A stretch of 64,000 nt of DNA from contig NZ_ATWL01000007.1 of the NCBI RefSeq assembly GCF_000421225.1, forward strand, positions 124,001 through 188,000, read 5' to 3'. This document shows positions 9,156 to 28,373 of the stretch, one piece after another; positions within the stretch are counted from its first letter, which is position 1; every line of letters starts with the position of its first letter. The notes under the pieces are model-generated. The model was not told the origin of the DNA, made no database searches, and worked only from the letters and a program-made list of their open reading frames with translations. Position numbers and translations under genes: made by a program. Origin of the DNA: Ruania albidiflava DSM 18029. GTDB lineage: Bacteria; Actinomycetota; Actinomycetes; Actinomycetales; Beutenbergiaceae.

Positions 9156-9995
9156 GTGCAGGTTGCGTGGGGTGCTGCCACCGATGCGGGCGGGCGCCGT
9201 CCGGCCAACGAGGACGCGGTGCTCGCCCAGCCGCCGGTGTTCCTCGTTGCCGACGGCATGGGCGGCCACGTGCACGGAGCGATGGCCTCGGACATCGTGG
9301 TGCGCACGTTCGCCGAGTTCTCCGACGCCTGGCACCCGGACGTGGAGGTCCGCGGGGAGCACGTGCTGGCGGCCATCCACGCTGCTCAGGAGCGGATCCG
9401 GTCCGAGCTGGCGCACCTCGGTGGTGCGGGCATCACCGCCGGCAGCACAGTGGCCGGCGCCGTGCTCACCGCGCACGACGAGAAGACGTACTGGCTCGTG
9501 TTCAACGTGGGCGACTCCCGCGTCTACCGGTTCTCCGGCGGTGAGCTGCACCAGGTGAGTGTGGACCACTCGGTCGTGCAGGAGCTGGTCGAGGCCGGCG
9601 CACTGCGGCCAGAGCAGGCGCGCGAGTCCCGGCACCGGCACGTGATTACCCGGGCGGTGGACTCCGGGCCGGACACCACCGCCGACTTCTGGCTGCTGGC
9701 CGCCGGCAGCGAGGACCGCCTGCTGATGTGCAGCGACGGCCTGCTGGACGAGCTCAGCGAAGCGCATGTCGCGAGCGTGCTGGCGGAGCGAGAGCTCGCC
9801 TCGGCGGCGGCCGAGGTGCTGCTGCAGGACGCGATCACTGGCGGAGCACGCGACAATGTCTCAGTAGTGGTGGTGGACCTGGCCGGTGAAGCCGACCTGG
9901 CGCACACCGCCCCGAGGATGGAACCTAGGGGTCAGGACATCTCGTCGGTGGGCACGACCGTGCCCCGCGAGCAGATTCGGTCCACGGAGGGATGA
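9156..9995 (+). CDS. PP2C-type Ser/Thr phosphatase
   Basis: This is a 279-residue PPM/PP2C phosphatase (PstP/PrpC type). The metal-binding and catalytic motifs are NEDAVL, ADGMGGH, VFNVGDSRVYR, CSDGLLDE and GARDNVSVVVV, all intact. It should dephosphorylate the products of the kinase two genes downstream. The GTG at 9156 is chosen for the purine-rich AAGGAAGG 6 nt upstream; an in-frame ATG at 9126 is the alternative. A TAGGAT -10-like hexamer lies at 9110-9115. Its stop overlaps the next start (ATGA), so phosphatase, FHA protein and kinase form one operon. Confidence 0.92.
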   Translation: MQVAWGAATDAGGRRPANEDAVLAQPPVFLVADGMGGHVHGAMASDIVVRTFAEFSDAWHPDVEVRGEHVLAAIHAAQERIRSELAHLGGAGITAGSTVAGAVLTAHDEKTYWLVFNVGDSRVYRFSGGELHQVSVDHSVVQELVEAGALRPEQARESRHRHVITRAVDSGPDTTADFWLLAAGSEDRLLMCSDGLLDELSEAHVASVLAERELASAAAEVLLQDAITGGARDNVSVVVVDLAGEADLAHTAPRMEPRGQDISSVGTTVPREQIRSTEG

Positions 9996-11662
9996 CGATG
10001 GCAGGGAGCACGGCAGCCCGGTACGTCCGCGGCAGATGGTCAGCGCTGGTGACCGAGCAGGGCACGGCGCTGCTGCACCCCTCGATCGGGGAGGAACGCG
10101 TCCGCGGGGTGTGGTCGGCGCTGAGCGAGGGCGCTGGGGTCAGCGGCTGCCTGGAGGTGCTCGCTGCGGACGGGCTGGTCGACCTGCCCTCGTTCGGGCT
10201 CGTGCAGCACGGGCAGGGTGAGCTGCGCGTGCTGGTGCGCGGCGAGGTGCAGATCAGTGCCGCCGAGCAGGTGCTCGGTGCCGCTGGTATCGCAACCTGG
10301 CGAGAGGCGCTCGTACCCGCCCAGTCCTACCGGATCTTCGTCGCGGACGACGACGCAGCCGGGGTGGCGTGGCCGCTGGCAGCGGGCGTCGTGCTCGCCT
10401 CGGAGGTGGAGTGGCTGGGTGCAGCACCGGAGGTCACCGGGGCTGCACAGGCAGGCGTCCAGGCTGCTGAGGCCGCCCAGGGCCAGGCCGAGGTCGAGGG
10501 AGCGACCGCCGCGCAGGACGCGGCGGTGAGCTCGCCGGAGGTCGCCGCGCCGGTCCCAGCGGTAGGACCGGTGGCGGACGGCGGCGTGCCGCACGACGGG
10601 CCGGCCACCGACGAGGGTCCGCAGCAGGACGAGCCAGCCACGGGCAGTGGCGTGGAGCAGACCGAGGTGAGCCCCGCCGTCGAGCAGAGCGACGAGCACG
10701 AGATCGCCGCGGTGGCCGACGACGGGCTGCAGGCGGCAGCCGAGTCAGGTGAACCGGTCGAGGCCCCCGATGCGGTGGCGGCCGAAGAGGCCCCGGGCGA
10801 GGAGGAGCAGCCGGAGGCAGGTGCAGCGCCGGTCTCCGAGGAGACGCAGGTCGGTCAGCTGTCTGAACGGCGGCCCACGCACCCGGCACCCTCGCTGGCC
10901 GCTGAAGGCAGCGAGATCATCGACTCCCTGCCCTGGGCAGTGAGCACCGCCGACCGGGAGCAGGCAGCCGCTACCGCACCGGCGGCCGAGGCACCGGAGT
11001 CCTCGGCGCCGGAACCAGCTGCGGACGACCTGCCTGAGCACACGGTGCTCTCCCCGCGCGGTCCGAACGCCGCCGCTGCAGCGGCGGCCGCCAGCAGTCC
11101 GGTGCCGCCCTGGCAGCCGCCGTCGGACATGCCCCCACCCAGCGCAGCGGCCCCGGCCTACGGTCAGGGTGATGTGGACATCGACGGCGACCACGACGGG
11201 CACACCATCATGGTCTCCGAGCTGCCCAAGGACCAGGACATGACGATCGTGCCCGGCCTCGGGGACACCGACCTGTACGACGAACCCGGGCAGCGGCCGG
11301 CCGGCGCCCCGGCGCTCAGCCTGAGCGTGTCCACCGGCGCCGAGGTGCCGCTGGACCGGCCAGTGCTCATCGGGCGCGCCCCGGAGTCGGCCCGGTTCAG
11401 CGCGGGTGTGCAGCCCCGGCTGGTCACCGTGCCCAGCCCGCAACAGGACATCTCCCGGACGCACGTGGAGATCCGTGCGGAAGCAGGCAGCGCCGTCGTC
11501 ACCGACCTGAACTCCACCAACGGCACTGTGCTCGTGCAGCCCGGTGCTGCCCCGCGTCGGCTGCACGCCGGCGAAGGTGCGTCCGTGCCGGCCGGTACGC
11601 TCATCGACCTGGGCGACGGGGTCACCGTGAACGTGCACCCGACCGACCAGGCCGGAACGTGA
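9992..11662 (+). CDS. FHA domain protein with long Ala/Glu-rich linker
   Basis: The 556-residue protein has a folded N-terminal region (about 1-145), a long low-complexity linker rich in Ala, Glu and Pro (about 150-430), and a C-terminal FHA domain (about 447-550). FHA landmarks are visible: GRAPES, SRTHVEI and DLNSTNGTV. FHA domains bind phosphothreonine, so it is a likely substrate or adaptor of the adjacent kinase. No membrane segment is seen. It overlaps the phosphatase stop by 4 nt at its start and the kinase start by 4 nt at its end. The N-terminal domain's role is unknown. Confidence 0.85.
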   Translation: MTMAGSTAARYVRGRWSALVTEQGTALLHPSIGEERVRGVWSALSEGAGVSGCLEVLAADGLVDLPSFGLVQHGQGELRVLVRGEVQISAAEQVLGAAGIATWREALVPAQSYRIFVADDDAAGVAWPLAAGVVLASEVEWLGAAPEVTGAAQAGVQAAEAAQGQAEVEGATAAQDAAVSSPEVAAPVPAVGPVADGGVPHDGPATDEGPQQDEPATGSGVEQTEVSPAVEQSDEHEIAAVADDGLQAAAESGEPVEAPDAVAAEEAPGEEEQPEAGAAPVSEETQVGQLSERRPTHPAPSLAAEGSEIIDSLPWAVSTADREQAAATAPAAEAPESSAPEPAADDLPEHTVLSPRGPNAAAAAAAASSPVPPWQPPSDMPPPSAAAPAYGQGDVDIDGDHDGHTIMVSELPKDQDMTIVPGLGDTDLYDEPGQRPAGAPALSLSVSTGAEVPLDRPVLIGRAPESARFSAGVQPRLVTVPSPQQDISRTHVEIRAEAGSAVVTDLNSTNGTVLVQPGAAPRRLHAGEGASVPAGTLIDLGDGVTVNVHPTDQAGT

Positions 11663-13158
11663 CCCGGCGACCACCCTCACGGCCGCCGGAGATCCCCGGG
11701 TTCCGGTACCAGCGGCTGCTCGGCAGCGGCGGCTTCGCCGATGTGTTCCTCTACGAGCAGGAGCTGCCGCGGCGGAAGGTGGCGGTCAAAGCGCTGCTCG
11801 CCGACGCCGTCACCCCCGCCGGCCTGGCACAGTTCGTGGACGAGGCCAACCTGATGGCCCAGCTGTCCACCCACCCCTCGATCGTGACCATCTACCAGGC
11901 CGCCACGACCGCCGACGGACGCCCCTACCTGGTGATGGAGTACTGCCCCCGACCGAACCTGTCGGTGCGGTACCGCAACGAACGGATCGGTGTGGCCGAG
12001 TCGCTGCGGATCGCGGTACGTCTCGCAGGTGCCGTGGAGACTGCGCACCGGGCCGGAATCCTGCACCGGGACATCAAACCGGCGAACGTGCTCACCACCG
12101 ACTACGGCTGGCCCGCGCTCACCGACTTCGGCATCTCCGTGGCCACCGCCGCCGCCGACGACACCGACCAGGCAGGCATGTCCATCCCGTGGGCAGCACC
12201 GGAGTTCTTCGCCGACGACGCCCCCCGCGGCGCCGGTGGCGACGTGTACGCCCTCACCGCCACGGTCTACACGCTGCTGGCCGGGCGCTCCCCGTTCGAG
12301 CAGGGGCGCGGGTCGAACTCGGCGCTGGACCTGATCACCCGCATCGAGCGCGACCCGGTGCCTCCGACCGGCCGAGACGACGTACCCCCGTCGCTGGAGG
12401 AGCTGTTCCGGCGCGGCATGGCCAAACGCCCGGAGGGGCGGTTCTCCTCCGCAGCGGCGTTCGCGCGTGCTATCCAGCGGGTGGAGCAGGAGCTGCACCT
12501 GACCCCCACTGCGTTGGACGTGCCGGACGCCTCCTGGGTGGAGACCGGAGAGGATGCTGAGGACCAGCGCACCCGGGTCCGGTCGATCAGCACGGTGCAG
12601 GTGAACCGCGACCCGAGCGCGACCCGGCACCGGCCCGCGATCATCGACCCGGCCGCACGCGGCCAGGAGGCTGCGGGAGCAGGGCGGGCCGCGGACGAGG
12701 GGGACGTCGGCGCACCGGGCTCGGAGCGTGCCGGTCGACGCCGGAACGCCTGGATCGCTCTCGGCGCGGCGCTGGTGGTGGTCGCGGCAGTGGCGGCGAT
12801 GGCGATCGGTGCGCTGAACCAGCCCGGTGGTATCGAGGAACCGAGCCCGTCGGACTCGGTGGCCACCGCTGACACGCCCACCGCACAACAGTCCCCGCCA
12901 CCACCGGTGACGGACCTGGACCTGGACCGCACAGGTGACGACGTGCAGGTCACGTGGACGGCACCGAAGTACGAGGGGGAACTAGAGTTCGTCATAGTCG
13001 TCACCTCCGGTGGGGACAGCTGGGACCTCAGTACCGGTTCTCGGACGTCGAGCACGATCGAGGACCGGGCCGACCAGGTCTGTGTCACGGTGAAGAGCAT
13101 CGATGCCACGTCCAGGAAGGTGTCCAGTGATAATGGCAATCCGACGGCGTGCGCGTGA
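11659..13158 (+). CDS. Transmembrane Ser/Thr protein kinase with extracellular C-terminal domain
   Basis: This 499-residue eukaryotic-type kinase (PknB-like) has LGSGGFADVF (Gly loop, about 21-30), Lys in VAVKAL, HRD with Asp138, DFG at 156-158 and an APE motif (AAPEFF), so catalysis looks intact. One TM helix (about 364-385) follows a cytoplasmic linker. The outside part is a Pro-rich stretch and a short beta domain starting PPPPVTDLDLDRTGDDVQVTW, which looks FN3-like, not PASTA. It is equivalent in position to Pkb2 of the bifidobacterial PFNA cluster. It overlaps the FHA gene by 4 nt. Confidence 0.92.
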   Translation: MTRRPPSRPPEIPGFRYQRLLGSGGFADVFLYEQELPRRKVAVKALLADAVTPAGLAQFVDEANLMAQLSTHPSIVTIYQAATTADGRPYLVMEYCPRPNLSVRYRNERIGVAESLRIAVRLAGAVETAHRAGILHRDIKPANVLTTDYGWPALTDFGISVATAAADDTDQAGMSIPWAAPEFFADDAPRGAGGDVYALTATVYTLLAGRSPFEQGRGSNSALDLITRIERDPVPPTGRDDVPPSLEELFRRGMAKRPEGRFSSAAAFARAIQRVEQELHLTPTALDVPDASWVETGEDAEDQRTRVRSISTVQVNRDPSATRHRPAIIDPAARGQEAAGAGRAADEGDVGAPGSERAGRRRNAWIALGAALVVVAAVAAMAIGALNQPGGIEEPSPSDSVATADTPTAQQSPPPPVTDLDLDRTGDDVQVTWTAPKYEGELEFVIVVTSGGDSWDLSTGSRTSSTIEDRADQVCVTVKSIDATSRKVSSDNGNPTACA

Positions 13159-13943: not shown

Positions 13944-13987
13944 GGGGAGCTCTTCCCGTTGGCTTCCCCAGGGCGGCATCGTAGACT
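13944..13987 (+). promoter_or_regulatory. Promoter of the Ig/FN3-MoxR-DUF58 operon with GGGGAG palindrome
   Basis: The palindrome GGGGAGCTCTTCCC (13944-13957) lies immediately before a -35-like TTGGCT (13959-13964), which is 17 nt from a -10-like TAGACT (13982-13987). An almost identical arrangement with the same 24-nt palindrome-to-minus-10 distance lies at 24746-24789. The position suggests an activator or repressor site at the -35. Confidence 0.5.
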
Positions 13988-14024: not shown

Positions 14025-17000
14025 GTGAGGATTCGAACGCGGCTGCGCCAGCACAAGCGTGGTGTTGCCAGCGCGACGATCATGTCGTTGGTGCTCGGCA
14101 CCGTCGTGGCGCTCAGCCTCAACTACGAAGGCGTCGCCACAGCCGACGTGGACCTGAACGACGGCGGGGTCTGGGTCTCGAACAACTCCTCGATCATGGT
14201 CGGTCGGCTGAACTACCCGATCGGGGAGATCGACGCCACCCTGGCGGCGCAGAGCCAGGACGTGGACCTGCTGCAGCGCCAGGACGTCGTCTTCGTCCGG
14301 GACCGGGCCACCAACGGCATCCAGCGGGTGGACCCGGCGGCGGTGAGCGTGCAGGGGATGATCCCGCTGCCGGCGGACTCCGACGTGCAGCTCGGGGACG
14401 GCACCCTCGGGGTGCTGGTCGGCGAGACCGGTGAGTGGCGGGTGCTCGGGCTGAACGAGCTCGACGTGCTCCAGGAGTCCAGCGAGGACCCGCAGGCCGT
14501 GCTCGGCGAGGGGTCGGCCCAGGCGATCGCCGACGACGGTACCGCCTACGGGGTGAACACCCGTGACGGGGAGCTGCTCACCTTCGCCCCAGGACAGCGC
14601 ACCGAACCCGAGGCGACCACCATGGACGCGGACCTGCTCACCGACGACACCCAGCTGACCGCCGTCGGGAACGATGTGGTGGCCCTCAGCTACGACGAGC
14701 AGGAGGACGCGCTCACCCTGCTGCGGCCGGAAGAGGAGCCGGTGGACCTCACCGGCCTGGACATCGACCGCGGCACCGCACAGCTGCAGGCACCCTCCGC
14801 CGACGGCGACGTGGTCGCCATCACCACCTCCGACGCCCTGGTGCTGGTGCCGCTGGATGGTGGCGAGCCCCGGGTGGAGCAGCCCAGCACCCCGGGCGAG
14901 CCGGCACAGCCCGTGCAGGTGGCCGACTGTGTGCACAGTGCCTGGTCCTCGGCCGGTTCGGAGTACATCCGGGTCTGCGGCGACTCCGAGGCCGTGCCGC
15001 TGCCAGTACCGGAAGGCACCGGTGGGGAGCTGAAGTTCCGCACGAACCGGAACTTCGTGGTCCTCAACGAGCTGTCCACCGGTAGCTCGTGGATGATCGA
15101 GGACACGCTGATCCTCGTGGACAACTGGGAGGACCTCACTCCGCCGACCGAGGAGGAAGAAGAGGAGGAAGAGGACTCCGAGGACCTCGAGGAGCGGGAG
15201 CTGGAGCTGGACCGGGAGGCAGAGAACCGCGACCCGGTCGCCCAGCCGGACTCCTTCGGCGTGCGGCCAGGGCGCACTGTGCTGCTCCCGGTGCTGGACA
15301 ACGACTCCGACGCCGACGGCGACCTGCTTACTGTCGGTGCCTTCGAGGAGGTGGCAGAAGAGTTCGGCGTCGTGGAGCCGGTGCTCGGTGGCCGGGCGCT
15401 GCAGATCCGGGTAGCAGCGGAGGCCAGCGGCACTGCGAGCTTCCAGTACACCGCCGACGACGGCCGTGGTGGCACCGACGATGCGACCGTGGACCTGACC
15501 GTGCACGGGCCGGAGCAGAACAGCCCACCCGAGCAGCAGCAGGACATCGAGGCGACCATCACCAGCGGCGCCAGCACCGAGGTGAACCTGCTCGACGACA
15601 TGCACGACCCCGACGGTGACCCGATGTACGTCGTCGACGCTGTCGATGCTGCCGGGCTGAACGTGGTCGCCAACCCCAACGGTCTGATCAACATCACCGA
15701 CCCCGGGGTGCAACCCGGCGTGCACCAGGTGCGCGTCGAGGTCAGCGACGGGCAGGACACCTCCGAAGCGGTCATCGACGTAGAGGTGCTTCCGCAGTCC
15801 GCGCAACCACCGACGGCGGTCTTCGACTTCGAGACGGCGTTCGCCGGGCAGGCGATCACGATCGACCCGATCGCCAACGACGTGGACCCGAACGACAAGC
15901 CACTGCGGTTGGCGAACATCAGCGGGGCCGAGGGGGCGGAGATCTCCCAGAACTCAGACAGCACCACGTTCCAGTTCAAGGCCGAGACTCCCGGGGACTA
16001 CTACGTCACCTATGTGGTGGCCGACGACGACGGCCTGTCCGCCACCGGTCTGGTCCGGGTGAACGTGCGGGCGGCCGAGGACGACGAGCCGATCGCCGTG
16101 GCCGACACAGCGCTGCTGCCTCCGACGGGCACTGTGCTGGTCGATGTGCTGGAGAACGACTTTGACCCAGCCGGTGGTGTGCTGGCGGTGCAGCAGATCG
16201 ACGTGCCGGCCGGTCAAGGGCTGCGGGTCTCGATCCTGGACCACCGGATCCTGCGGATCAGCTCCGAGCGGGCCCTGGCCGCTCCGGTGACGATCAACTA
16301 CACCGTCTCCAACGGCACCTCCAGCGCCGAGGGTGAGGTGCTGGTGCTGCCGATGGACGCCGAGACCCAGGCCCAGGGCCCGGTCGCAGTGGCCGACTCG
16401 GTCCGGGTGCGGGCCGGAGACCATGTCACCATCCCGGTGCTGGCCAACGACTCACACCCGAACGGGGTGCCGTTCAGCCTGGACGACGAGCTCGTGGAGG
16501 AGCCGGAGGAAGGGCTGATCTTCACCGCCGGGGACATGGTGCGGTTCCAGGCCCCGGACGAGGCCACCACGCTGCATGCCGTCTACTCGATCACCGACGA
16601 GAACAACCGCACCTCCTCCGCTCGCATCACGATCAACGTGCAGGCTCGGGCGGACGAGGCGAACACGCCGCCGGTGCCCCGGGACGAACAGACCCGATCG
16701 TTCGCCGGGGAGCGGATCCGCATCCCGATCCAGACCTACGGCATCGACCCGGACGGGGACTCCGTGCAGCTGCTCGGCACCGAGTCCGCTCCCTCCCTCG
16801 GGCGGATCGTGGAGGTCGGTCCCAGCTACATCGACTACCAGGCCTACACCGACTCCGCTGGTGCCGACGAGTTCACCTACGCTGTGCGGGACCGGCTCGG
16901 GGCGATGGCCACCGCCTCGGTCACCGTCGGCGTGATCCCGCCGCCGGCGACCAACCGGGACCCGGTGACCGTCAACGACCAGCTGAGTGTGCGACCGGGC

Positions 17001-20000
17001 CGTGCCGTGACCGTGGACGTGCTGGAGAACGACACCGACCCGGACGGTGACCAGCTCGCGCTGGACGACCCGCCCTTCGGTGAGACCGACGGGATCGACG
17101 CATCGGTGCAGGACGGGAACGTCGCGTTCACCGCACCGGAGGAGCCGGGCACCTACCTGGTGGAGTACAACGTCACCGACCTGCACGGTGGCACCGCCCA
17201 GGGGCTGCTCACCGTGGACGTCGACCCGGACGCCGAACCGCAGGCGCCGGTCGCAGTCGATGACGTCGTCCCGGCGAACGAGATCGTGGACCGTACCGAG
17301 GTGCGGGTCGAGGTGCTTGCCAACGACTACGACCCGGACGGCAGCCGAGAGGCGCTGGAGGTCTCCATCCCGGACGGCCAGGACGGCGTCCGCGAAGTGG
17401 ACGACCAGGTCGAGGTCCAGCTCACCGACACCAGGCAGGTGGTCACCTACAAGATCACCGACGAGGACGGACTGTCCTCGTACGCCTTCATCGACGTGCC
17501 GGGGCTGACCGACACCGGGCCGGTGCTCCGCCCAGACCTGGAGCCGATCCGGGTGGAGGCGGGTGTCACCGAGACGATCGAGCTGAACGACTACGTCATC
17601 TCGCTCAGCGGTGACCCGGTGCAGCTGGCCGACACCACCTCGGTGCGCGCGAGCAACTCCGACGGGTCCAACCCGGTGGTGGACCCCAGCACCTTGCAGT
17701 TCACCTCCAGCCCCGACTACGTGGGTCCGGCGACCCTCACCTTCGAGGTCACCGACGCCGAGGACATCAACTCCGACGACATCCTCACCTCGGTGCTCAC
17801 CCTGGACATCGAGGTCTACTCGGAGGAGAACAAGCCGCCGCGGATGCGCAACGGCTCCCTGTCCGCGGAGGTCGGTGGAGACGCGGTCACGCTCGACCTG
17901 GCCCGCCTGGCGGAGGACCCGGACGGACAGTCCACCGACCTGGAGTACGCGATCGCCGAGCAGGCGCCGGGCTTCACTGCGTCCCTGGACGGATACATCC
18001 TGACCGTGCAGGCGGACAACGACACCGCCACCGGCACGGTGACAGAGCTGCCGATCACGGTCACCGACGGCGAGTCCGACCCGGTCAGCGCCGCAGTAGA
18101 GCTGACCGCCACGGCGAGCAACCGGCCACTGATCAGCACCAACCCGGACGATGCCGGTGAAGTGCACCAGGGGCAGAGCACCACTGTGGACGTGCTGGAG
18201 AACGACTCCAACCCCTTCCCGGGCGAGCCGCGCGAGATCACCGACGTCCAGGTGGACGCAGAGCAGGGCACTGCCTCGATCGACGGCGACTCGGTCACCA
18301 TCACCCCGGCCGATGACTATGTCGGCCGGATGACTGTGGTCTACACCGTCGTCGATGTCACCGGCGCCCCGGACCGAGAGGTGCAGGGGCAGGTGACCGC
18401 TGCCGTGCTCGGTGCGCCGGAGGCGCCGACCATCCCGCTGGTGGAAGAGGTCGGCAACGGCCAGGTGGCGCTGAGCTGGACGGCACCGGACGACAACGGC
18501 TCGCCGATCACCGGGTACACGGTCCACTACAACGGCGGCAGCCAGTCCTGCCCGTCCACCACCTGCACCATCTCCGGACTGTCGAACGGGACCACCTACA
18601 CCTTCACCGCCGTGGCGCACAACGACGTCGGTGACTCTGAGGAGAGCCCGGCCTCGGCCGAGGCCACCCCGGACGTGCGCCCAGAGGCGCCGCGCGCCCC
18701 GTCCGTAGAGTTCGGCGACGGTGAGCTCACCCTGGACTGGAACGAACCGGCCAACGAGGGCACGCCGATCACCTCCTACGACGTGCAGATCAACCCGGCC
18801 GGTGGCCGCAGCCAGCAGTCGGTGAACGGCACCCAGATGACCTGGACCGGTCTGACGAACGGGCAGAACTACACCTTCCGGGTGCGTGCCATCAACGATG
18901 CACCGGACCCCGGGCAGTGGAGCGAGTGGTCCGCCGCCGAGCACCCGTCCGGTCCGCCGGCCCAGCCAGCAGCACCGCAGACCACCCGCATCGACGATGC
19001 CGACGGCGGACGTCTGATGGTCGAATGGAGCGCGCCGAACAACAACGGCGACCCGATCTCCTCCTACGAGCTGCGGATGTACCAGGACGGCGACCGCGTG
19101 CAGACCTTCACACCCGGGGGTGGGCAGACCTCCCGGGAGGTGCAGGTGGAGAACGCGCACGACTACCAGTTCAGCCTGGTGGCGATCAACCGATCCGGTG
19201 ACTCGGAGATGTCTCCGCGGTCCGAGGAGGTGCGCTCCTTCGGCAAACCCGGTCGGGTGGGGAACGTCTCGGCGGAGCCGACAGGCGTGGACAACACGGC
19301 CGAGGTCAGCCATAACGAGCCGTCGAACAACGGCCAGGCGATCTCCCGGTACGAGTACCGGCTGAACGGTGGCAGCGTGCAGAACCTGCCCTCCGGCGGC
19401 GAGATCACCGTGCCCAACGACGGGACTTCCTACCGGGTCCAGGTGCGCGCCTGCAACACCTACTGCGGCGCCTGGAGCGCACAGTCGTCTGCGTTCAGCA
19501 CCTACGGGAGGCCGGGAACCTCCACGGTGAACATCGATGCCTCTGCCGATGGGCAGCGCGTCAACTTCTCCTGGACGATCGGTGATCGCGACAACGGCGC
19601 TGCGCTGAACGCGAGCCGCTACCGCATCGACGGTGGCAGCTGGCACAACGTCTCCGGCCGGTCCGGCAGCGCCAACGTGAGCGGTGACTGGGAGGAGAAC
19701 CACACCATCGACGTCCAGGTGCGCAACGAGCACGGCCAGTGGAGCGACTCGAGCGCTAGCAAGTCGCAGAAGGCCGACAAGGACCCGACGCCGCCGGCGA
19801 ACCCGCGCATGTGGATCACCCACGGTGACGAGCGCGGCTGCCAGAGCTCCGGAAGTACCAGTGGCTGCGTACGGTTCAAGTTGAACTGGGAAGACATTCC
19901 AGCGGCGGATCAGGGTACGTACGATGTCTGGATCTCAGTTTCGAACGGCTGCTTCGACCGTCGCGGGCCATACTCCACGACCATCGACTCGACGGATGGC

Positions 20001-20117
20001 AGCGTCCAGCTCGGGAACTCCGGATACACGCCGCCGCACCTCGACCCGAACTGCAGCGGAACCGTGGATCTCGAGATCAGTCCGAACGGTGGATGGGCAG
20101 ACGACACCGCTTGGTGA
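14025..20117 (+). CDS. Giant membrane-anchored Ig-like/FN3 repeat protein
   Basis: The protein has 2030 residues from the GTG at 14025, chosen because GGCAGGGG lies just upstream and the -10 lies upstream of it. One TM helix is near residues 15-32. A repetitive beta region (about 40-360) and an acidic Glu run (about 373-390) follow. About 11 Ig-like or cadherin-like domains come next (about 400-1460), recognisable by repeated VLxNDxDPDGD-type motifs. Five or six FN3-like domains end the protein (about 1464-2030). The second FN3 domain contains WSEWS (1632-1636). It corresponds to the fn3 gene of the PFNA cluster and is probably a surface-exposed scaffold or adhesin. The last 270 nt look less GC-biased than the rest. 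Confidence 0.88.
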   Translation: MRIRTRLRQHKRGVASATIMSLVLGTVVALSLNYEGVATADVDLNDGGVWVSNNSSIMVGRLNYPIGEIDATLAAQSQDVDLLQRQDVVFVRDRATNGIQRVDPAAVSVQGMIPLPADSDVQLGDGTLGVLVGETGEWRVLGLNELDVLQESSEDPQAVLGEGSAQAIADDGTAYGVNTRDGELLTFAPGQRTEPEATTMDADLLTDDTQLTAVGNDVVALSYDEQEDALTLLRPEEEPVDLTGLDIDRGTAQLQAPSADGDVVAITTSDALVLVPLDGGEPRVEQPSTPGEPAQPVQVADCVHSAWSSAGSEYIRVCGDSEAVPLPVPEGTGGELKFRTNRNFVVLNELSTGSSWMIEDTLILVDNWEDLTPPTEEEEEEEEDSEDLEERELELDREAENRDPVAQPDSFGVRPGRTVLLPVLDNDSDADGDLLTVGAFEEVAEEFGVVEPVLGGRALQIRVAAEASGTASFQYTADDGRGGTDDATVDLTVHGPEQNSPPEQQQDIEATITSGASTEVNLLDDMHDPDGDPMYVVDAVDAAGLNVVANPNGLINITDPGVQPGVHQVRVEVSDGQDTSEAVIDVEVLPQSAQPPTAVFDFETAFAGQAITIDPIANDVDPNDKPLRLANISGAEGAEISQNSDSTTFQFKAETPGDYYVTYVVADDDGLSATGLVRVNVRAAEDDEPIAVADTALLPPTGTVLVDVLENDFDPAGGVLAVQQIDVPAGQGLRVSILDHRILRISSERALAAPVTINYTVSNGTSSAEGEVLVLPMDAETQAQGPVAVADSVRVRAGDHVTIPVLANDSHPNGVPFSLDDELVEEPEEGLIFTAGDMVRFQAPDEATTLHAVYSITDENNRTSSARITINVQARADEANTPPVPRDEQTRSFAGERIRIPIQTYGIDPDGDSVQLLGTESAPSLGRIVEVGPSYIDYQAYTDSAGADEFTYAVRDRLGAMATASVTVGVIPPPATNRDPVTVNDQLSVRPGRAVTVDVLENDTDPDGDQLALDDPPFGETDGIDASVQDGNVAFTAPEEPGTYLVEYNVTDLHGGTAQGLLTVDVDPDAEPQAPVAVDDVVPANEIVDRTEVRVEVLANDYDPDGSREALEVSIPDGQDGVREVDDQVEVQLTDTRQVVTYKITDEDGLSSYAFIDVPGLTDTGPVLRPDLEPIRVEAGVTETIELNDYVISLSGDPVQLADTTSVRASNSDGSNPVVDPSTLQFTSSPDYVGPATLTFEVTDAEDINSDDILTSVLTLDIEVYSEENKPPRMRNGSLSAEVGGDAVTLDLARLAEDPDGQSTDLEYAIAEQAPGFTASLDGYILTVQADNDTATGTVTELPITVTDGESDPVSAAVELTATASNRPLISTNPDDAGEVHQGQSTTVDVLENDSNPFPGEPREITDVQVDAEQGTASIDGDSVTITPADDYVGRMTVVYTVVDVTGAPDREVQGQVTAAVLGAPEAPTIPLVEEVGNGQVALSWTAPDDNGSPITGYTVHYNGGSQSCPSTTCTISGLSNGTTYTFTAVAHNDVGDSEESPASAEATPDVRPEAPRAPSVEFGDGELTLDWNEPANEGTPITSYDVQINPAGGRSQQSVNGTQMTWTGLTNGQNYTFRVRAINDAPDPGQWSEWSAAEHPSGPPAQPAAPQTTRIDDADGGRLMVEWSAPNNNGDPISSYELRMYQDGDRVQTFTPGGGQTSREVQVENAHDYQFSLVAINRSGDSEMSPRSEEVRSFGKPGRVGNVSAEPTGVDNTAEVSHNEPSNNGQAISRYEYRLNGGSVQNLPSGGEITVPNDGTSYRVQVRACNTYCGAWSAQSSAFSTYGRPGTSTVNIDASADGQRVNFSWTIGDRDNGAALNASRYRIDGGSWHNVSGRSGSANVSGDWEENHTIDVQVRNEHGQWSDSSASKSQKADKDPTPPANPRMWITHGDERGCQSSGSTSGCVRFKLNWEDIPAADQGTYDVWISVSNGCFDRRGPYSTTIDSTDGSVQLGNSGYTPPHLDPNCSGTVDLEISPNGGWADDTAW

Positions 20118-20142: not shown

Positions 20143-21153
20143 ATGACAGCAGCACCTCTGACGGGGCAGCAGGCCCCGGTGACCCCCGACCAGGCGGCCT
20201 GGTTCGCCGACACGTTCGACCGGCTGGTCGCCAACGTGTCCGCTGCAGTGCTCGGCAAGTCGCACGTGGTACGGCTGACCCTGACCTGCCTGCTGACCGG
20301 CGGTCACCTGCTGTTGGAGGACTTCCCGGGCACCGGGAAGACCTCGTTGGCTCGCGCTGTGGCCGCCACCGTGCAGGCCAGCCACTCCCGGATCCAGTTC
20401 ACGCCCGACCTGCTGCCCTCGGACGTGACCGGTGTGACGATCTACGACCAGAAGAGCCAGCAGTTCGAGTTCCACGCGGGCCCGATCTTCGCCTCCGTGG
20501 TGCTCGCAGACGAGATCAACCGTGCCTCGCCGAAGACCCAGTCGGCGCTGCTGGAGGTGATGGAGGAGGGGCGCGTCACCATCGACGGCAAACCGCACTC
20601 CGTCCCCGGCCCGTTCATCGTGCTCGCCACCCAGAACCCGGTCGAGCAGGCCGGTACCTACCGGTTGCCCGAGGCGCAGCTGGACCGGTTCCTGATGCGC
20701 ACCTCGCTCGGGTACCCGGACCAGGCCGCCACTGTGGAGATCCTCAGCGGTGCCGCGGTCCGCGACCGTACTGCGGCGCTGTCCCCGGTGATCACCGCTT
20801 CCGCCGTGGTGGACATGGCCAACCTCGCTGGCGCGGTGCACGTGGACCCCGCCGTCCTCGCCTACATCTCCAGCCTGGCCGAAGCCACCCGCGAGGCTCC
20901 CGAGATCGCCCTCGGTGTCTCCGTGCGTGGTGCTCTCTCCCTGGTCCGCTGCGCCAAGACCTGGGCGGCCGCGAACGGCCGGCACTACGTGATCCCGGAC
21001 GACGTGAAGGAGCTGGCCGAGCCCGTCCTGGCCCACCGCATGGTGCTGGACGCCGAGGCGGAGTTCGAGGGCGCGGACCCGGCCACAGTGCTCTCCCGGA
21101 TCGTCTCCGAGGTGCCGCCGCCCGCGCAGCGGGGGCAGACCCCCGGAGCATGA
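20143..21153 (+). CDS. MoxR-family AAA+ ATPase
   Basis: This 336-residue AAA+ ATPase carries Walker A FPGTGKTS, Walker B VVLADEINRASP, and the MoxR hallmarks LLEVMEEGRVTIDG, ATQNPVEQAGTY and LPEAQLDRFLMR. MoxR proteins act as chaperones that insert cofactors or remodel von Willebrand/DUF58 partners. Here the partner gene DUF58 overlaps by 4 nt (ATGA). It corresponds to the aaa-atp gene of the PFNA cluster and lies 25 nt after the Ig/FN3 gene. Confidence 0.93.
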   Translation: MTAAPLTGQQAPVTPDQAAWFADTFDRLVANVSAAVLGKSHVVRLTLTCLLTGGHLLLEDFPGTGKTSLARAVAATVQASHSRIQFTPDLLPSDVTGVTIYDQKSQQFEFHAGPIFASVVLADEINRASPKTQSALLEVMEEGRVTIDGKPHSVPGPFIVLATQNPVEQAGTYRLPEAQLDRFLMRTSLGYPDQAATVEILSGAAVRDRTAALSPVITASAVVDMANLAGAVHVDPAVLAYISSLAEATREAPEIALGVSVRGALSLVRCAKTWAAANGRHYVIPDDVKELAEPVLAHRMVLDAEAEFEGADPATVLSRIVSEVPPPAQRGQTPGA

Positions 21154-22409
21154 GCACCCCGCCTGAGACGCGCCGGCGCATCGACACCGGCCCCAGCATC
21201 GGCGACGGCCTCACCCGGGCCGTCGCCGGGCTGCGCGACCCGATCCGGCGCACCACGTCGGTGCTCACCTGGATCACGCGAGCGGCCTGGATCGTGCTCG
21301 GCCTGGGCGTCATCGCCTGGGTGGTCGGCGCACTGGGCGGCTGGGTGGAACTGGTCGTGGTCGGTGCCGGTCTGCTCGCGGTGCTCCTGGGCTGCGCGTT
21401 CTTCGCCATCGGCCGGCACCCGTACGCGGTGAACCTGCGCCTGCGCGAGGGGCGTGTGGTGGTCGGCGAGCGTGCGATGGGTGGGATCGACGTACGCAAC
21501 GTAGGCACCTCGCACGTGCTGCCCGCCCGGCTGGAGCTCCCCGTCGGCCCGGTCACCGCGAAGTTCGCCCTCCCCGGGCTGGACCCGGGAGCCGAGCACG
21601 ACGAGCTGTTCGCGATCCCCACCGAACGCCGCGGGGTGCTCCAGGTCGGCCCGGTCCGCTCCGTGCGTGGCGACCCGTTCGGGCTGATCCGCCGGGCGGT
21701 GCAGTGGACCGACCCGGAAGACCTGTACGTGCACCCGCGCACGATCCGGCTGGGTTCCTCCTCGGCCGGGTTCCTGCACGACCTGGAGGGTCAGGTCTCC
21801 CGCGAGGTGACCAACGCGGACCTGTCCTTCCATGCCCTGCGCGAGTACGTACCGGGTGATGACCGCCGGTACGTGCACTGGCGCTCCTCCGCCCGGGTGG
21901 GGGAGCTGATGGTGCGTCAGTTCGAGGAGACCCGCCGCACCCACCTGGTCACCGCCCTGTCGGTGAACGACCGCGACTACGGCGACCCAGACGAGTTCGA
22001 GCTGGCCATCTCCGCTGTGGGGTCGCTCGGCCTGCACACGCTCGGCACCGAGTCCGAGCTCACCGCCCTCACCCAGCGCCGGGAGATCGTCACCCTCGGC
22101 CCGCGCCCGTTGCTGGACGACCTCACCCGGCTGGAGAGCCGGAAGATGAGCGAAGGGGTGGTGGACCTGGCCCGGGCGGTCACCCGGGACGCGATGCGTG
22201 CCACAGTCGCGATCATCGCCTGCGGGTCCACAGTGACGCCGCACCAGATCCGTGCTGCCGGTGCCGTGCTGCCCGCCGGGGTTCGGGCGCTGGCAATCCA
22301 GTGCCGCATCGGCGCCCAGGTGCGCGCCCACCGGCTCGGCGCCGTCACCGTGCTCGAGCTGGGCAACCTCGAGGACCTGCCCCGCGGCTTCCGAAGGCTC
22401 AAGGCATGA
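21150..22409 (+). CDS. DUF58 domain membrane protein
   Basis: The 419-residue protein has two adjacent TM helices (about 46-90) followed by a soluble beta-rich region and the DUF58 domain. The DUF58 signature FHALREYVPGDDRRYVHWR is clear, followed by RVGELMVRQFEE. DUF58 proteins have a von Willebrand-A-like fold and are partners of MoxR ATPases. Molecular function is unknown. The ATG overlaps the moxR stop and the next gene begins 13 nt after its stop. Confidence 0.9.
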   Translation: MSTPPETRRRIDTGPSIGDGLTRAVAGLRDPIRRTTSVLTWITRAAWIVLGLGVIAWVVGALGGWVELVVVGAGLLAVLLGCAFFAIGRHPYAVNLRLREGRVVVGERAMGGIDVRNVGTSHVLPARLELPVGPVTAKFALPGLDPGAEHDELFAIPTERRGVLQVGPVRSVRGDPFGLIRRAVQWTDPEDLYVHPRTIRLGSSSAGFLHDLEGQVSREVTNADLSFHALREYVPGDDRRYVHWRSSARVGELMVRQFEETRRTHLVTALSVNDRDYGDPDEFELAISAVGSLGLHTLGTESELTALTQRREIVTLGPRPLLDDLTRLESRKMSEGVVDLARAVTRDAMRATVAIIACGSTVTPHQIRAAGAVLPAGVRALAIQCRIGAQVRAHRLGAVTVLELGNLEDLPRGFRRLKA

Positions 22410-22422
22410 TGCGGGGTAGCCC

Positions 22423-24693
22423 ATGAGTGCCGACGCCGCAGCACCCGCCTCTCGTCGCGAACGACGCGTGCAGGCCCGCAGCTGGCTGACCCCGCTGGCC
22501 CGGTGGGCCAGCCTGCGCAACGTGCTCAACGCCGTCGTACCGGTGCTCCTGATCGGCATGGCGATCGCACCGCTGCACGCGGTCTACCTGGACCCGGCGC
22601 TGTACGCGGCAGTGGTCGGCGGACTGGTGCTCGGCGGCGGTATCGCCGTGGCCGGCGCCGCCTACCGTCTCGGTGCCGTGACCATGATCTCGGTGACCGT
22701 GATCGTGTTCTTCCTCTTCGGGGCACTGGCGGCCCCGTCGACGGCGGTGCTCGGGGTGATCCCCACGCCCACCACGTGGCAGCTCATGGGCGTGGGCATG
22801 GTGACAGTGTGGAAGCACGTGCTGACCGTGGCTCCGCCGCTGGGCGCAGGCGGTGTCGTGCTGCTGCTGCCGTACCTGTTCACGTTCGTGGCCGCCGTGG
22901 TCGCGGTGACCATCTCGCTGCGCACCCGCCGGCTGTACAGCCTCAGCCTGGCGCTGCCTGCGGTGGTGCTGATGGCCTCGATCCTGTTCGGCACGTACCT
23001 GTCCGTGCTCGCCGGTGTGCTCGGTGTGCTGGCTGTGGTGGTCGCGGTCACCTGGGTCGCCTGGCGTGCCGACCGCCTGGAGCTGAACCGGGTGCTCGCG
23101 GTCACCATCGTGCTCGCGGTCGCTGCCCTGGGTGGGACCGGTGCTTCGGTGTTCGCCGCGCCCACCTCGCAACGTGTGGTGCTGCGTGACTACGTAGAGC
23201 CGCCGCCGGACCCGCAGGACCTGCCCAGCCCCCTGGCCGGGTTCCGGAACTATGCCGACGAGCTCGCCGACGTCGACCTGTTCACCGTGTCCGGGCTGCC
23301 GCAGGACGAGACGCTGCTGCGGCTGGCCGCGCTGGACAGCTATGACGGGCTGGTCTGGTCGGTGACCGGGGAGAACGTTCCCGGGTCGGGAGTGTTCCGG
23401 CGGATCGGGGAACGGGTCGAGGTGGAGGTCCCTGACGACGCCTACGCCGTGGACGTGCACGTCTCCGGTTATGACGACGTGTGGGTGCTGAACGCCGGCG
23501 GCACGGTCGATGTGAACTTCTCCGGGGCCGATGCCGCCGACCTGAGCGACACGTTCTACTACAACCAGGCCACCGACACCGGGCTGACCACCGCCCGCCT
23601 CAGCGAGGGAGACGGCTTCGAGCTGGTGGCCGACCCGGCCGCGCAGGTGGTCCCGGAGAACGTCACCGAGCTGGCCGTGGCCAACATCACCTTGCCCGAG
23701 CCACGAGACGTGCCCGACGCGATCGGTTCGCTGGCCGGACGGTACTCCGCAGACGCGAACTCTCCCTACGCCAAGATCGAGGCGATCGCCGAGTCGCTGA
23801 GCAGCTACGGCTTCTTCTCCCACGGTCTGGAAGGGGAGGTGCCCTCCCGTCCCGGGCACGGGTCCGCCCGGTTGCAGGAGATGCTCGACGCCGAGCAGAT
23901 CGTCGGGGACGAGGAACAGTACGCTGCGGCGATGGCGCTGATGGTGCGGGCACTGGGGTACCCCGCCCGGGTGGTGCTCGGCTTCGACGTGACCTCCGGG
24001 GGCACGGTGACGCTCACCGGTGAGGACGTGATCGCCTGGGTCGAGGTGCCGTTCGAGGGCGTCGGCTGGGTGCCGTTCTTCCCGACCCCGCCCGAGGACC
24101 AGATCCCGCAGGCGGAGGACCCTGACCCCGCAGACCGCCCCCAGCCGCAGGTGCTGCAGCCGCCGCCACCGCCGGAGGAGCCAGCTGAGGTGCCGCCGCA
24201 GGACCGTGACGACGCCGAGGTAGACAACAAGACCATCGACAAGCTCCCGTACTACAACCGGTGGGTGCTCATCGCGGGGATCGGCTCGGGTTCGTTGCTG
24301 GTCCTGCTCAGCCCGCTGTTGCTGATCCTGGCGATCAAGGGGTTGCGCCGCCGGCGCCGACGCACCCGCGGGGACACCGTCGACCGGATCACCGGCGGCT
24401 GGGACGAGGTGATCGACTCGCTGCGTGACCTCGGTGTGGCCACCCCGTCCGGGACCACCCGCAGCGAGCTCGCCACCCAGGTGGACGCCCAGGTCGACGG
24501 TGCCGATGTGCTCACCCTGGCACGCGAGGCAGACCGTGCCGTGTTCGCACCGGAGCAGCCCGCCGAGGAGCACGTGACCACCTACTGGGCGGCCATCCGA
24601 CGCGCTGCCTCCCGGGTGGCCGCGGGCATGCCGTGGCGCCGCCGGATGCGCGCGCGGATCTCCACCCGGTCGCTGCGGCGCAGGAAGCGCTGA
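22423..24693 (+). CDS. Transglutaminase-like membrane protein, predicted catalytically dead
   Basis: The 756-residue protein has about six or seven N-terminal TM helices, an extracytoplasmic region with a transglutaminase-core fold (about 430-560), a Pro-rich stretch, one TM helix (about 610-632) and a basic cytoplasmic tail. The fold is recognised from EQYAAAMALMVRALGYPARVV and GVGWVPF. All three triad positions differ from the active family: GDCEQ reads GDEEQ (Glu497), HAWVEV reads IAWVEV (Ile537) and FDPTP reads FFPTP (Phe553). It fills the tgm position of the PFNA cluster. A structural or binding role is more likely than cross-linking. Confidence 0.88.
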   Translation: MSADAAAPASRRERRVQARSWLTPLARWASLRNVLNAVVPVLLIGMAIAPLHAVYLDPALYAAVVGGLVLGGGIAVAGAAYRLGAVTMISVTVIVFFLFGALAAPSTAVLGVIPTPTTWQLMGVGMVTVWKHVLTVAPPLGAGGVVLLLPYLFTFVAAVVAVTISLRTRRLYSLSLALPAVVLMASILFGTYLSVLAGVLGVLAVVVAVTWVAWRADRLELNRVLAVTIVLAVAALGGTGASVFAAPTSQRVVLRDYVEPPPDPQDLPSPLAGFRNYADELADVDLFTVSGLPQDETLLRLAALDSYDGLVWSVTGENVPGSGVFRRIGERVEVEVPDDAYAVDVHVSGYDDVWVLNAGGTVDVNFSGADAADLSDTFYYNQATDTGLTTARLSEGDGFELVADPAAQVVPENVTELAVANITLPEPRDVPDAIGSLAGRYSADANSPYAKIEAIAESLSSYGFFSHGLEGEVPSRPGHGSARLQEMLDAEQIVGDEEQYAAAMALMVRALGYPARVVLGFDVTSGGTVTLTGEDVIAWVEVPFEGVGWVPFFPTPPEDQIPQAEDPDPADRPQPQVLQPPPPPEEPAEVPPQDRDDAEVDNKTIDKLPYYNRWVLIAGIGSGSLLVLLSPLLLILAIKGLRRRRRRTRGDTVDRITGGWDEVIDSLRDLGVATPSGTTRSELATQVDAQVDGADVLTLAREADRAVFAPEQPAEEHVTTYWAAIRRAASRVAAGMPWRRRMRARISTRSLRRRKR

Positions 24694-24818: not shown

Positions 24819-25694
24819 GTGGCAGCCGAGCTGGTGGGCGCGGACGGGACGCAGCTGCTGCAGCAGCTGGAGCGCGCGAAGACCCGCGTCCAGGAGATCC
24901 GCAGGCACCTGGACCGAGCAGAGCACGCGATCGCCCGGACGATCAATGGTCAGGACGGTGAGGGTGCGGTCGAGATCGTGCTCGGTGCCGACGGGAACGT
25001 CGAGGCGGTGCACCTCGATCCCGACTGGCGGGAGCTGGTGGACGAGCAGGGGCTCCCGGCGGCGGTGACCGAGGCGCACCGCGCGGCACACGGCTCCCGC
25101 CTCGCCGACTGGTGCGGTGCACTACGGGAGAGCCTCGGGGCTCGCGGCTGGGTGCCGATGGTCCTGCGAGCGCAGACCGAAGCCCCCGATGGGCCACGGC
25201 TCCTCGGACCGGACCCGGACCTGAGCGGTATCGACCCGGACCTCTCCGACGGGCAGGTCGCCGCCGAGGTACGTGCCGCGCTGCACCGGGCCACAGGTGC
25301 AGGACCGCATGCTGCGGGCACCGAAGGGGCAGCGCCCGCTGCGGCCGACCGGGGCGCTGGTGCACCGGCCGACGCGCGGCGGCTGCGCGAGCAGGTGGTG
25401 GCGGCATTCGGCGACCTGTCGGTGGCGATCGATGCCGCACCTGCCTGGTTGGACATCACCCTCGTGGTCAGTGGCGCCCAGACGGTGCTGGGCATGCTCC
25501 GCGAGGTCACCGAACCGCTGCTGCACTCCGGAGCCGGTGCGCCCGAGAGCCAGGTACGGCTCACCGGCGGGCTGGACGTCGCCGTCCGGCGGGCACGGTC
25601 GCTGCTGGGGATCCCAGAAGGCCTGGGCGTGGCGCTAGGTGCGGTCACGGACTTCGTCACCGTCGCCGGTCCCGGGCTGGCTGGCGGTCGCTAG
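24819..25694 (+). CDS. YbaB/EbfC-like domain protein of unknown function
   Basis: The 291-residue protein starts at a GTG preceded by GTGAGGAGGG. An N-terminal coiled coil (TQLLQQLERAKTRVQEIRR, about 10-28) leads into a strand pair VEIVLGADGNVEAVHLDPDW, which resembles the YbaB/EbfC nucleoid-associated fold. An Ala/Gly-rich linker (about 155-190) joins it to a C-terminal helical domain. No membrane segment is apparent. The promoter shares its palindrome with the Ig/FN3 operon, which suggests a role in the same system. The YbaB resemblance is by eye only. Confidence 0.6.
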   Translation: MAAELVGADGTQLLQQLERAKTRVQEIRRHLDRAEHAIARTINGQDGEGAVEIVLGADGNVEAVHLDPDWRELVDEQGLPAAVTEAHRAAHGSRLADWCGALRESLGARGWVPMVLRAQTEAPDGPRLLGPDPDLSGIDPDLSDGQVAAEVRAALHRATGAGPHAAGTEGAAPAAADRGAGAPADARRLREQVVAAFGDLSVAIDAAPAWLDITLVVSGAQTVLGMLREVTEPLLHSGAGAPESQVRLTGGLDVAVRRARSLLGIPEGLGVALGAVTDFVTVAGPGLAGGR

Positions 25695-27095: not shown

Positions 27096-28373
27096 ATGCT
27101 CGATCTCATCGGCGAGGCCGCCGCCTATCTGTCCGCCCCCGCGGGTCGGGCACGGTGGCAGGACACCTGGACGATGAAGCGCACCCGCCGTGAGGCGATG
27201 GGGCACCTCGCCAGCGCCTACGCCTCCTGGTTGCGCACCGTCTGCGGTGTGCTGGTCACCGTCGTGGCCCTCGGCGGGGCGTTCCTGCTCGGCCGAGGCG
27301 CAGGAGACCTGAGCGGTCCTGGCGGTCTGGTCGCCGTGCTCACCATGGTCGGGGGAGTGGTCCTGCTGCTGGCCGCTCTGGTGGGCGCCGGGTATGTGCT
27401 GCTGACCGGCACCCGGCTGGTCGGTGCGTTGCGCACCTGGAGCGCGGCCCGGGCCGACGACGGCGGACCCGGGGTGGGCAAGGTGCTCACCCCTGCCGTG
27501 ATGGTGCGGCTGGTGCTCGCGCTGCTCGCCCTGCTCAGCGGCCTCGCCGTGGTGCTGGTCCGCACCGACGTGCTCAACCTCGATCTGCCCCTGACCGCGG
27601 GCGGGGCACCGGACGAAGCCGGTCAGACGTTGTGGGCGTGGTTCGCTGCGGTGATCGCCATGGCGAGCGGACTGGCCGCAGGCAGTGGTGCGGTCCGAGC
27701 GGGACTGGCCGTCCGCCGTCGACCCCGGACCAGGAGAGCCGCACCAGCGGCACAGGCCGCTGCCTCCCAGCAGCAGTACGCTCCTCAGCCCGGTGGTGGC
27801 ATGTCGAGCGGAGCCGGCGGTGCGACGGCACCCGGGGGGTTGGACCTGGCCACCAGCGCACCGGCAGGTGCGGGGGCTCCCACGGGTGCAGCGGGCTGGC
27901 AGCCGCCGGCGACCATGGAGCAGCCGGTGCCCGTGGAGCAGCCGGTGCCCCCGTCAGCACCCGGATCGTCGGCCGAGGAGCAGTGGGCCGAGACCCGAAA
28001 GGTCGGCGACCTGCCCGCCGAGGCCCGCCCCACCGCGGAGCCGATGACCACCGCGCTGCGCGCAGTGCTGGCCGATGGACGCACCATCGCCGCCGAGGGG
28101 CTCACCCTGCTCGGGCGGTCGCCCGCCGGGCGTGCCGGTGAGCAGGTGGCCGCAGTGGTCGCGGTCGAGGACGCTGCGGTGTCCAAGACGCACCTGGCGA
28201 TCCGGCTGGAGGGCGCCCAGGGCTGGGTGACCGACCGGGCATCGACGAACGGGTCGGTGCTGGTCCGTGACGGCAACCACGAGACGCTCACCCCCTGGCA
28301 GGAGGTGCTGCTCGCAGCCGGTGACCGGCTCCTGCTCGGCACGTCGACGGTGCAGATAGAGGCGGCCAGCTGA
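27096..28373 (+). CDS. Membrane protein with C-terminal FHA domain
   Basis: The 425-residue protein has four TM helices (within about 48-205), a Gln/Ala/Gly/Pro-rich cytoplasmic linker (about 210-310) containing a short EQPVPVEQPVP repeat, and a C-terminal FHA domain (about 325-422; LLGRSP, SKTHLAI, DRASTNGS). It is a probable membrane-bound phosphothreonine reader linked to the kinase encoded at 11.7-13.2 kb. AGGAG lies 5 nt before the ATG. It follows the LarA-like gene closely. Confidence 0.82.
   Translation: MLDLIGEAAAYLSAPAGRARWQDTWTMKRTRREAMGHLASAYASWLRTVCGVLVTVVALGGAFLLGRGAGDLSGPGGLVAVLTMVGGVVLLLAALVGAGYVLLTGTRLVGALRTWSAARADDGGPGVGKVLTPAVMVRLVLALLALLSGLAVVLVRTDVLNLDLPLTAGGAPDEAGQTLWAWFAAVIAMASGLAAGSGAVRAGLAVRRRPRTRRAAPAAQAAASQQQYAPQPGGGMSSGAGGATAPGGLDLATSAPAGAGAPTGAAGWQPPATMEQPVPVEQPVPPSAPGSSAEEQWAETRKVGDLPAEARPTAEPMTTALRAVLADGRTIAAEGLTLLGRSPAGRAGEQVAAVVAVEDAAVSKTHLAIRLEGAQGWVTDRASTNGSVLVRDGNHETLTPWQEVLLAAGDRLLLGTSTVQIEAAS

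Follow-up and report, generated by a model that had tools for sequence, protein, structure and literature searches.

A stretch of 64,000 nucleotides from Ruania albidiflava DSM 18029 (contig NZ_ATWL01000007.1, positions 124,001 to 188,000; hereafter the window) encodes a TgpA-like transglutaminase-fold (TG) protein of 756 amino acids (aa) that is almost certainly a pseudoenzyme. It retains the fold but has lost the chemistry. Because the catalytic Cys is missing, transglutaminase activity is very unlikely, and going by the sequence such chemistry is impossible in the window protein, which contains zero cysteines. The gene and the codons at the three catalytic sites, the latter placed by alignment with TgpA, are located as follows.

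22423 to 24693, forward strand: almost certainly a pseudo-transglutaminase (TgpA-like), 756 aa, with ATG start and unbroken frame
23911 to 23913, forward strand: codon 497 (Glu), catalytic Cys site, within GDEEQYA
24031 to 24033, forward strand: codon 537 (Ile), catalytic His site, within DVIAWVE
24079 to 24081, forward strand: codon 553 (Phe), catalytic Asp site, within FFPTP

The protein consists of N-terminal membrane helices, Transglut_core at residues 437-552, a Pro-rich linker, a helix at 611-648 and a C-terminal helical DUF4129-like domain. Pfam recognizes TgpA_N (39.1 bits, cut-off 30) and Transglut_core (54 bits, cut-off 23), and by analogy with TgpA the Transglut_core domain would lie on the extracytoplasmic side. 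A DUF4129 match of 19.1 bits in the C-terminal part (residues 638-743, window 24334-24651) stays below the Pfam cut-off. NCBIfam gave no match at E 0.01 for the TG protein, the DUF58 open reading frame (ORF) described below or an FHA protein at 27096-28373. By sequence, the closest match among solved structures is the periplasmic TgpA domain of Pseudomonas aeruginosa (6g49; phmmer, E 0.002). In the phmmer alignment, GFCAHYA, DAHAWVE and SVDPTY of TgpA stand opposite GDEEQYA, DVIAWVE and PFFPTP of the window protein, with the Cys falling on Glu497, the His on Ile537 and the Asp on Phe553. The first-pass annotation of this DNA had read these three residues as replacements of the entire triad, and both this alignment and the model positions given below bear that out. 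It had also named an intact triad elsewhere in the domain as the finding that would overturn its claim; the cysteine-free protein holds none, which rules out a misalignment or a hidden triad.

The fold was examined in an AlphaFold2 model built from a 54-sequence alignment, with a mean predicted local distance difference test (pLDDT) score of 86, a predicted template modelling (pTM) score of 0.60 and block means of 87 to 98 over residues 431-560. Helix 497-510 opens at the Cys site, the His site 537 comes second in strand 536-544, and the Asp site 553 follows directly after strand 548-552; we take residues 497, 537 and 553 to sit at the triad places of the transglutaminase fold topology. VIA-align superposes model residues 268-560 on TgpA 6g49 with Z 22.0 and a root mean square deviation of 3.6 over 251 residues at 18% identity, and Foldseek ranks the two TgpA entries (6g49/6g4h) first. 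The clear core fold and intact frame of the first-pass annotation are thus confirmed by the Pfam match, the unbroken 756-aa ORF and this Z score. The C-terminal bundle resembles HEPN four-helix bundles (2hsb, Z 7.2), a likeness that we did not use as evidence since chance yields such scores for helical bundles.

The absence of the catalytic Cys extends to the whole family. A first alignment of 102 orthologues showed Cys at the site in 0/102, and with 18 more added the count is 0/120; there is also no Cys anywhere in residues 250-600, with 0/120 exceptions. The residues found at the Cys site are Asp (57), Glu (28), Ala (13), Gly (11), Gln (7) and Ser (4). His is kept at its site in 50/120 orthologues, Asp at the Asp site in 47/120 and Asp or Glu in 50/120, with His and the acid both kept in 31/120 and both gone in 51/120. 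Judging from these sequences, Cys loss is common to all the orthologues while the His and Asp sites have eroded unevenly, and the window protein is one without all three. Replacement of the entire triad therefore holds for the window protein and not across the family, where the loss of Cys alone is universal. Conservation of Glu/Ile/Phe in the lineage, which the first-pass annotation had proposed to check, is ruled out, as the 120 orthologues vary at all three sites.

Around the dead site the orthologues are strikingly uniform. S466, G478, R483, G495, E498, Q499, W539 and E541 are invariant in all 120, and H479 (118/120) and D496 (116/120) are nearly so. Every one of the 34 Cys-bearing relatives has both Cys and His (34/34); their third residue is Glu in 24 and Asp in 10, and position 496 holds Tyr or Phe. 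Residues of the orthologue signature are rare among them (H479 in 6/34, R483 in 2/34, D496 in 0/34), where columns 464-484 align loosely between the two sets. The ratio of nonsynonymous to synonymous substitution rates (dN/dS), calculated by NG86 against five relatives and rough for GC-rich genes, is 0.33-0.50 for the whole gene and 0.14-0.33 for the TG core (437-556). In 5/5 comparisons the core value is lower than that of the gene as a whole and of each other part compared (membrane part, residues 250-430, C-terminal part), and the Pro-rich linker (557-600) lies below even the core in 4/5. The first-pass annotation had argued for a pseudoenzyme and against a random defect, and the family-wide lack of Cys and the constraint on the core agree with it, as does the retention of catalytic motifs by most MoxR, kinase and phosphatase neighbours of the relatives. 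Decay of a single gene is ruled out by the intact frame, the constrained core and the Cys loss common to the 120 orthologues. With Cys-bearing paralogues included, TG matches were found in 28/29 relative genomes at E 1e-5, in 95/149 genomes of the order at 1e-15, and at 1e-12 in 172/296 genomes of the class and 95/296 of the phylum.

The TG gene is the last gene of an operon of the PFNA type, with all genes on the same strand. The genes preceding it are listed below.

9156 to 9995, forward strand: PP2C phosphatase with DGMGG, GDSR and DN motifs (predicted start)
9992 to 11662, forward strand: FHA-domain protein, from the Pfam scan
11659 to 13158, forward strand: Ser/Thr protein kinase with HRD and DFG motifs and, by eye, one transmembrane segment
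13183 to 13893, forward strand: 236-aa protein that looks FHA-like by eye and matches no Pfam family at E 0.1, with relatives in 59 loci
14025 to 20117, forward strand: giant surface protein (ORF opens at 13959; 14025 is the predicted start)
20143 to 21153, forward strand: MoxR-family AAA+ ATPase with PGTGKT and DEIN motifs
21150 to 22409, forward strand: DUF58 protein, whose ATG overlaps the MoxR stop

The MoxR and DUF58 genes overlap, and the gap from DUF58 to TG is 13 bases. The giant ORF of 2052 aa carries Big_9, cadherin-like and fn3 domains. Its layout comprises a hydrophobic anchor near the N-terminus (by eye), a beta-propeller head, Big_9/cadherin-like repeats and three fn3 stretches; the head was modelled as a beta-propeller (pLDDT 89), with a YVTN propeller as top Foldseek match. 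The kinase tail past the hydrophobic segment (about 12900-13158) looks fn3-like by eye, with no Pfam call at E 0.1. The MoxR protein passes the Pfam family bpMoxR, the propeller-containing type (38.2 bits, cut-off 27), and scores far better with AAA_3 (210.2 bits). Directly after the operon lies a gene for a YbaB/EbfC-like protein of 291 aa (window 24819-25694), with a phmmer match in no other locus mapped upstream and downstream. Promoter and terminator scans yielded nothing above chance (0 promoter-like signals, and 1 terminator-like signal against 2.7 expected), which is a weak test at high GC.

The order of kinase, fn3, MoxR, DUF58 and TG genes, with one FHA-like gene added between kinase and fn3, is that of the PFNA operon of Bifidobacterium. 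The available parts of four papers on that operon (PMC8430577, PMC6803598, PMC10688814, PMC12607495) give it as pkb2, fn3, aaa-atp, duf58 and tgm, then prpC, a hypothetical gene and fha. The window shares with it the kinase, the giant fn3 protein, MoxR, DUF58 and TG in the same order, and has PP2C and FHA genes too. It differs from it in the FHA-like gene between kinase and fn3, in PP2C and FHA genes that lead the operon, and in three fn3 stretches in the giant protein where the PFNA fn3 protein is described with two. The same papers, in those parts, treat Tgm as a transglutaminase, 'presumably a cysteine protease'; unlike that description, the TG sequences of this operon type examined here are without the catalytic Cys. 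In the freely accessible papers searched we found none that describes the triad as missing from Tgm or from transglutaminases linked to DUF58, which is not proof of absence.

To follow the operon we used named loci, the best 80 of 514 confirmed candidates, which were found with an alignment of Cys-less proteins and with search patterns that left the Cys and His positions free and favoured EQYA; loci L114-L131 are among the best matches to the window TG protein. Of the 74 named loci that extend 6 kb or more upstream of TG, 73 have a giant ORF, and wherever a named locus shows all four genes (73/73) they run fn3-MoxR-DUF58-TG along a single strand. By these gene neighbourhoods, the TG gene travels with MoxR, DUF58 and the giant surface protein. 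The core is found in Microbacterium, Arthrobacter, Cellulomonas, Georgenia, Cryobacterium, Nocardioides and others, and the nearest locus to the window's genome among the best 80 of 514 is that of Occultella. The kinase-phosphatase-FHA group stands before fn3 or after TG; PP2C-FHA-kinase follows TG in many loci, e.g. those of Arthrobacter and Microbacterium. In the named loci whose neighbour was found by score, MoxR has Walker A (PG.[GA]K[TS]) in 74/76 and Walker B in 75/76, the kinase has HRD in 52/52, DFG (loose pattern) in 52/52 and VAIK in 49/52, and the PP2C motifs are present in 37/37. Two Labedella loci (L064, L074) show a second kinase-fn3-MoxR set 3' of TG, cut by the locus end, which suggests tandem PFNA-type operons.

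The PFNA operon is described as restricted to bifidobacteria in the available part of PMC10688814. Against that restriction, the core of a PFNA-type operon is present beyond bifidobacteria. The freely accessible papers searched offered no PFNA-type operon outside them, save a remark on a mycobacterial moxR operon resembling PFNA, and this is not proof of absence. Eight further loci (L132-L139), of a family (f4) that is probably Bifidobacteriaceae, have the order fn3, MoxR, DUF58 and TG, with PP2C next in L132-L135. Their fn3 proteins have two strong fn3 domains in 7/7 (L137 not included), in L135 near residues 1481-1655 of 1985, and two is also the number given for the Bifidobacterium fn3 protein in the available parts of the four PFNA papers. 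The WSxPS/WSxES motifs taken from those papers occur in 2/8 of the fn3 ORFs (L133, L139), several of which are cut by the locus end. Phosphoketolase was tried as a bifidobacterial mark for the family and rejected as not diagnostic, since it is found in 9/9 of its genomes and also in 7/9 others. At the Cys site all eight TG proteins of the family carry Ser, and His is missing from its site in each.

More widely, we compared the far loci (L132-L211, these eight among them), chosen by hand across families and scores and thus non-random, of which 79 carry TG of this type. An fn3-domain ORF lies within 2 kb in 31/42 Cys-less far loci vs 0/32 Cys-bearing ones, with L159 and four loci without MoxR left out, as well as L162, which had no TG of this type. 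Judged by ORF length alone, in loci with 4.5 kb or more upstream, 25/41 Cys-less vs 0/27 Cys-bearing ones carry an ORF of 1300 aa or longer ahead of MoxR on the same strand. Counts with a profile of the giant protein left out L159 (short) and L144, L175, L181, L182 and L211 (no MoxR plus DUF58 matches). This profile gave no match in 31/31 Cys-bearing loci where TG follows MoxR and DUF58. Among 27 loci of the GDxEQ type it matched with at least 180 bits in 24, weakly in 2 and not at all in 1, and an fn3 domain was called in 22/27.

A second, looser Cys-less group, with sequences such as GTSEQFA, GTPEHYA or GNGTPDQFA at the site, was observed in other actinobacterial families (L148-L150, L152, L153, L155, L172-L178, L196, L199, L201). 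It mostly follows MoxR-DUF58, with L175 lacking a MoxR match. Of 15 members scored with the giant-protein profile, 2 matched strongly (one of them, L201, on the opposite strand), 8 weakly and 5 not at all, and an fn3-domain ORF adjoins in 9/15; Pfam fn3 was called at E <=0.001 in 8/8 scanned, 7 of them above the cut-off.

A quick tree was constructed from 100 rows with the triad columns removed, comprising 8/22 relatives, 18/80 named loci and 74/79 far loci (L114-L131 and L135, L136, L137, L159 and L182 omitted). A PFNA-type clade of 51 rows is split off at a support of 98 in the Shimodaira-Hasegawa-like approximate likelihood ratio test (SH-aLRT), and 32/33 Cys-bearing rows group together at SH-aLRT 92. 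A tree joining all 33 Cys-bearing rows is 18.9 log-likelihood units better and is not rejected by the approximately unbiased test (p-AU 0.71); therefore one change between Cys and no Cys suffices. Loss and gain of Cys look the same on this unrooted tree. The change was probably a loss, given that TgpA and the superfamily at large consist of active enzymes.

Transglutaminase folds are known in non-catalytic roles, with protein 4.2 serving as a scaffold and transglutaminase 2 binding fibronectin non-enzymatically. Like the window TG protein, protein 4.2 (EPB42; 8cs9, 8csw) has the fold without catalysis, being an inactive transglutaminase homologue of the red-cell membrane in the available part of PMC10318531, and the titles of the two entries place it in the erythrocyte ankyrin-1 complex. 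It differs from the window protein in being eukaryotic, in having other domains around the core, and in Z scores (6.3 and 6.0) not above those of active transglutaminases. A model of the transglutaminase 2-fibronectin complex (9a3v) is also listed in the structure comparison of the window protein. TgpA itself (PA2873; 6g49/6g4h) resembles the window protein in architecture, with a DUF3488/TgpA_N membrane part, an extracytoplasmic TG domain and a C-terminal part; unlike it, TgpA keeps Cys, His and Asp and has Ca-independent transglutaminase activity. According to the available part of PMC3507681, which names no fn3 gene beside TgpA, its gene is the last of the co-transcribed PA2875-2874-2873 unit. 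Frequent adjacency of mrp, DUF58 and transglutaminase genes is noted in the available part of PMC6803598. The MoxR-vWA ternary systems, as described in the available part of PMC7159879, also combine a MoxR ATPase with a co-chaperone-like partner and inactive enzyme domains proposed to bind peptides; their third component is VMAP, iSTAND, FtsH or a propeller. They differ from the window, where DUF58 takes the place of the vWA protein and the propeller is the head of the giant surface protein with its Ig-like and fn3 repeats.

Our best explanation, which as a whole we consider moderately probable, is that a family-wide pseudoenzyme of the TgpA family closes a PFNA-type operon and serves the fn3 protein as a platform that MoxR remodels. 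The dead domain probably binds, and the best candidate for its partner is the fn3 protein. In the extracytoplasmic dead domain, the former substrate cleft would have been remade around two conserved elements, the G-D-x-E-Q helix start and the GH..R loop, and would now grip a peptide or loop that belongs to the fn3 surface protein or to the cell wall. The cytosolic tail may then present the bound state to MoxR-DUF58, which would assemble or remodel the complex, controlled by the kinase, phosphatase and FHA proteins of the operon. Taken by itself, a non-catalytic role as membrane platform of the fn3 surface protein is plausible, with the chances slightly in its favour. A shift from cross-linking to binding or scaffolding, as the first-pass annotation had expected, is likewise plausible and fits the link to the giant fn3 protein.

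Several observations weigh against this explanation. The change of the Cys state is so rare that the link between Cys and fn3 comes down to one or two evolutionary events (1-2 independent pairs, too few to give a sign test any power), no matter how many descendants repeat the link, and near-copies occur among the far loci. Only the window and seven Cys-less loci served as seeds for the fn3 profile, and with it no fn3 ORF was found nearby in 6/15 GTxEQ-type and 5/27 GDxEQ loci, the latter five matching the giant-protein profile strongly (L143, L204), weakly (L146, L171) or not at all (L187). The surface partner could also be a matter of coincidental co-transcription. Moreover, E498 and Q499, present in 13/34 and 27/34 Cys-bearing relatives, may be inherited and not mark a new site, because they are partly common to both sets.

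This shared pair of residues also speaks for a TG domain that is an inert spacer for the folding of the membrane protein, constrained by core packing, and drift at the Cys, His and Asp sites is what would be expected after catalysis was lost. However, the polar residues H479, R483, D496, E498 and Q499 around the dead site are near-invariant and the core dN/dS lies below that of the membrane and C-terminal parts in every comparison, and we regard a spacer as rather unlikely. Alternatively, the old site could have been rebuilt into a new catalytic centre, with the conserved S466, H479, D496 and E498 as a hydrolase or transferase site beside the dead cleft. Their conservation (S466 and E498 in 120/120), the scarcity of H479 and the absence of D496 in Cys-bearing relatives, and their place in the model at loop ends and the start of the active-site helix favour this, but any nucleophile would be hypothetical and conserved polar residues also fit a ligand site or helix caps. 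Position 497 varies freely and residues 464-484 align loosely with the Cys-bearing set, and a rebuilt enzyme is in our view highly improbable.

A dead copy might also serve as a decoy or regulator of an active paralogue, competing for its substrate. The window's own genome has three Transglut_core matches. A second MoxR-DUF58-TG set was observed on its contig 2 (L161, G000:C2:367000-386500), in which Cys and His are intact and the third residue is Glu. However, these two TG proteins stand far apart on the tree, each with its own MoxR and DUF58 neighbours. Each of the 9 genomes of the probably bifidobacterial family has a single match at E <=1e-15, a line below which most Cys-bearing copies would score. 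We consider a decoy very unlikely.

Extended further, the pseudoenzyme platform would belong to a widespread actinobacterial system of surface-protein assembly or sensing, a proposal that we put forward tentatively. An obligate pseudo-transglutaminase would be the membrane receptor for a giant propeller/Ig/fn3 protein, reset by the MoxR AAA+ motor under kinase/phosphatase control. Loss of Cys would have been the founding event and the fn3 partner fixed later, and the bifidobacterial Tgm would then be a receptor, not an enzyme.

In the available parts of the four PFNA papers (PMC8430577, PMC6803598, PMC10688814, PMC12607495), the operon is studied as a means by which bifidobacteria communicate with their host. 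None of the loci examined here, eight probably bifidobacterial ones included, has the catalytic Cys in the TG of this operon type, and the type is spread over other Actinomycetota. The window also offers a bacterial pseudoenzyme of the transglutaminase fold, and its genome holds a Cys-bearing relative with which to compare it. The question shifts from what Tgm cross-links to what Tgm holds, and the published view of this protein would need correction if the named Bifidobacterium sequences agree.

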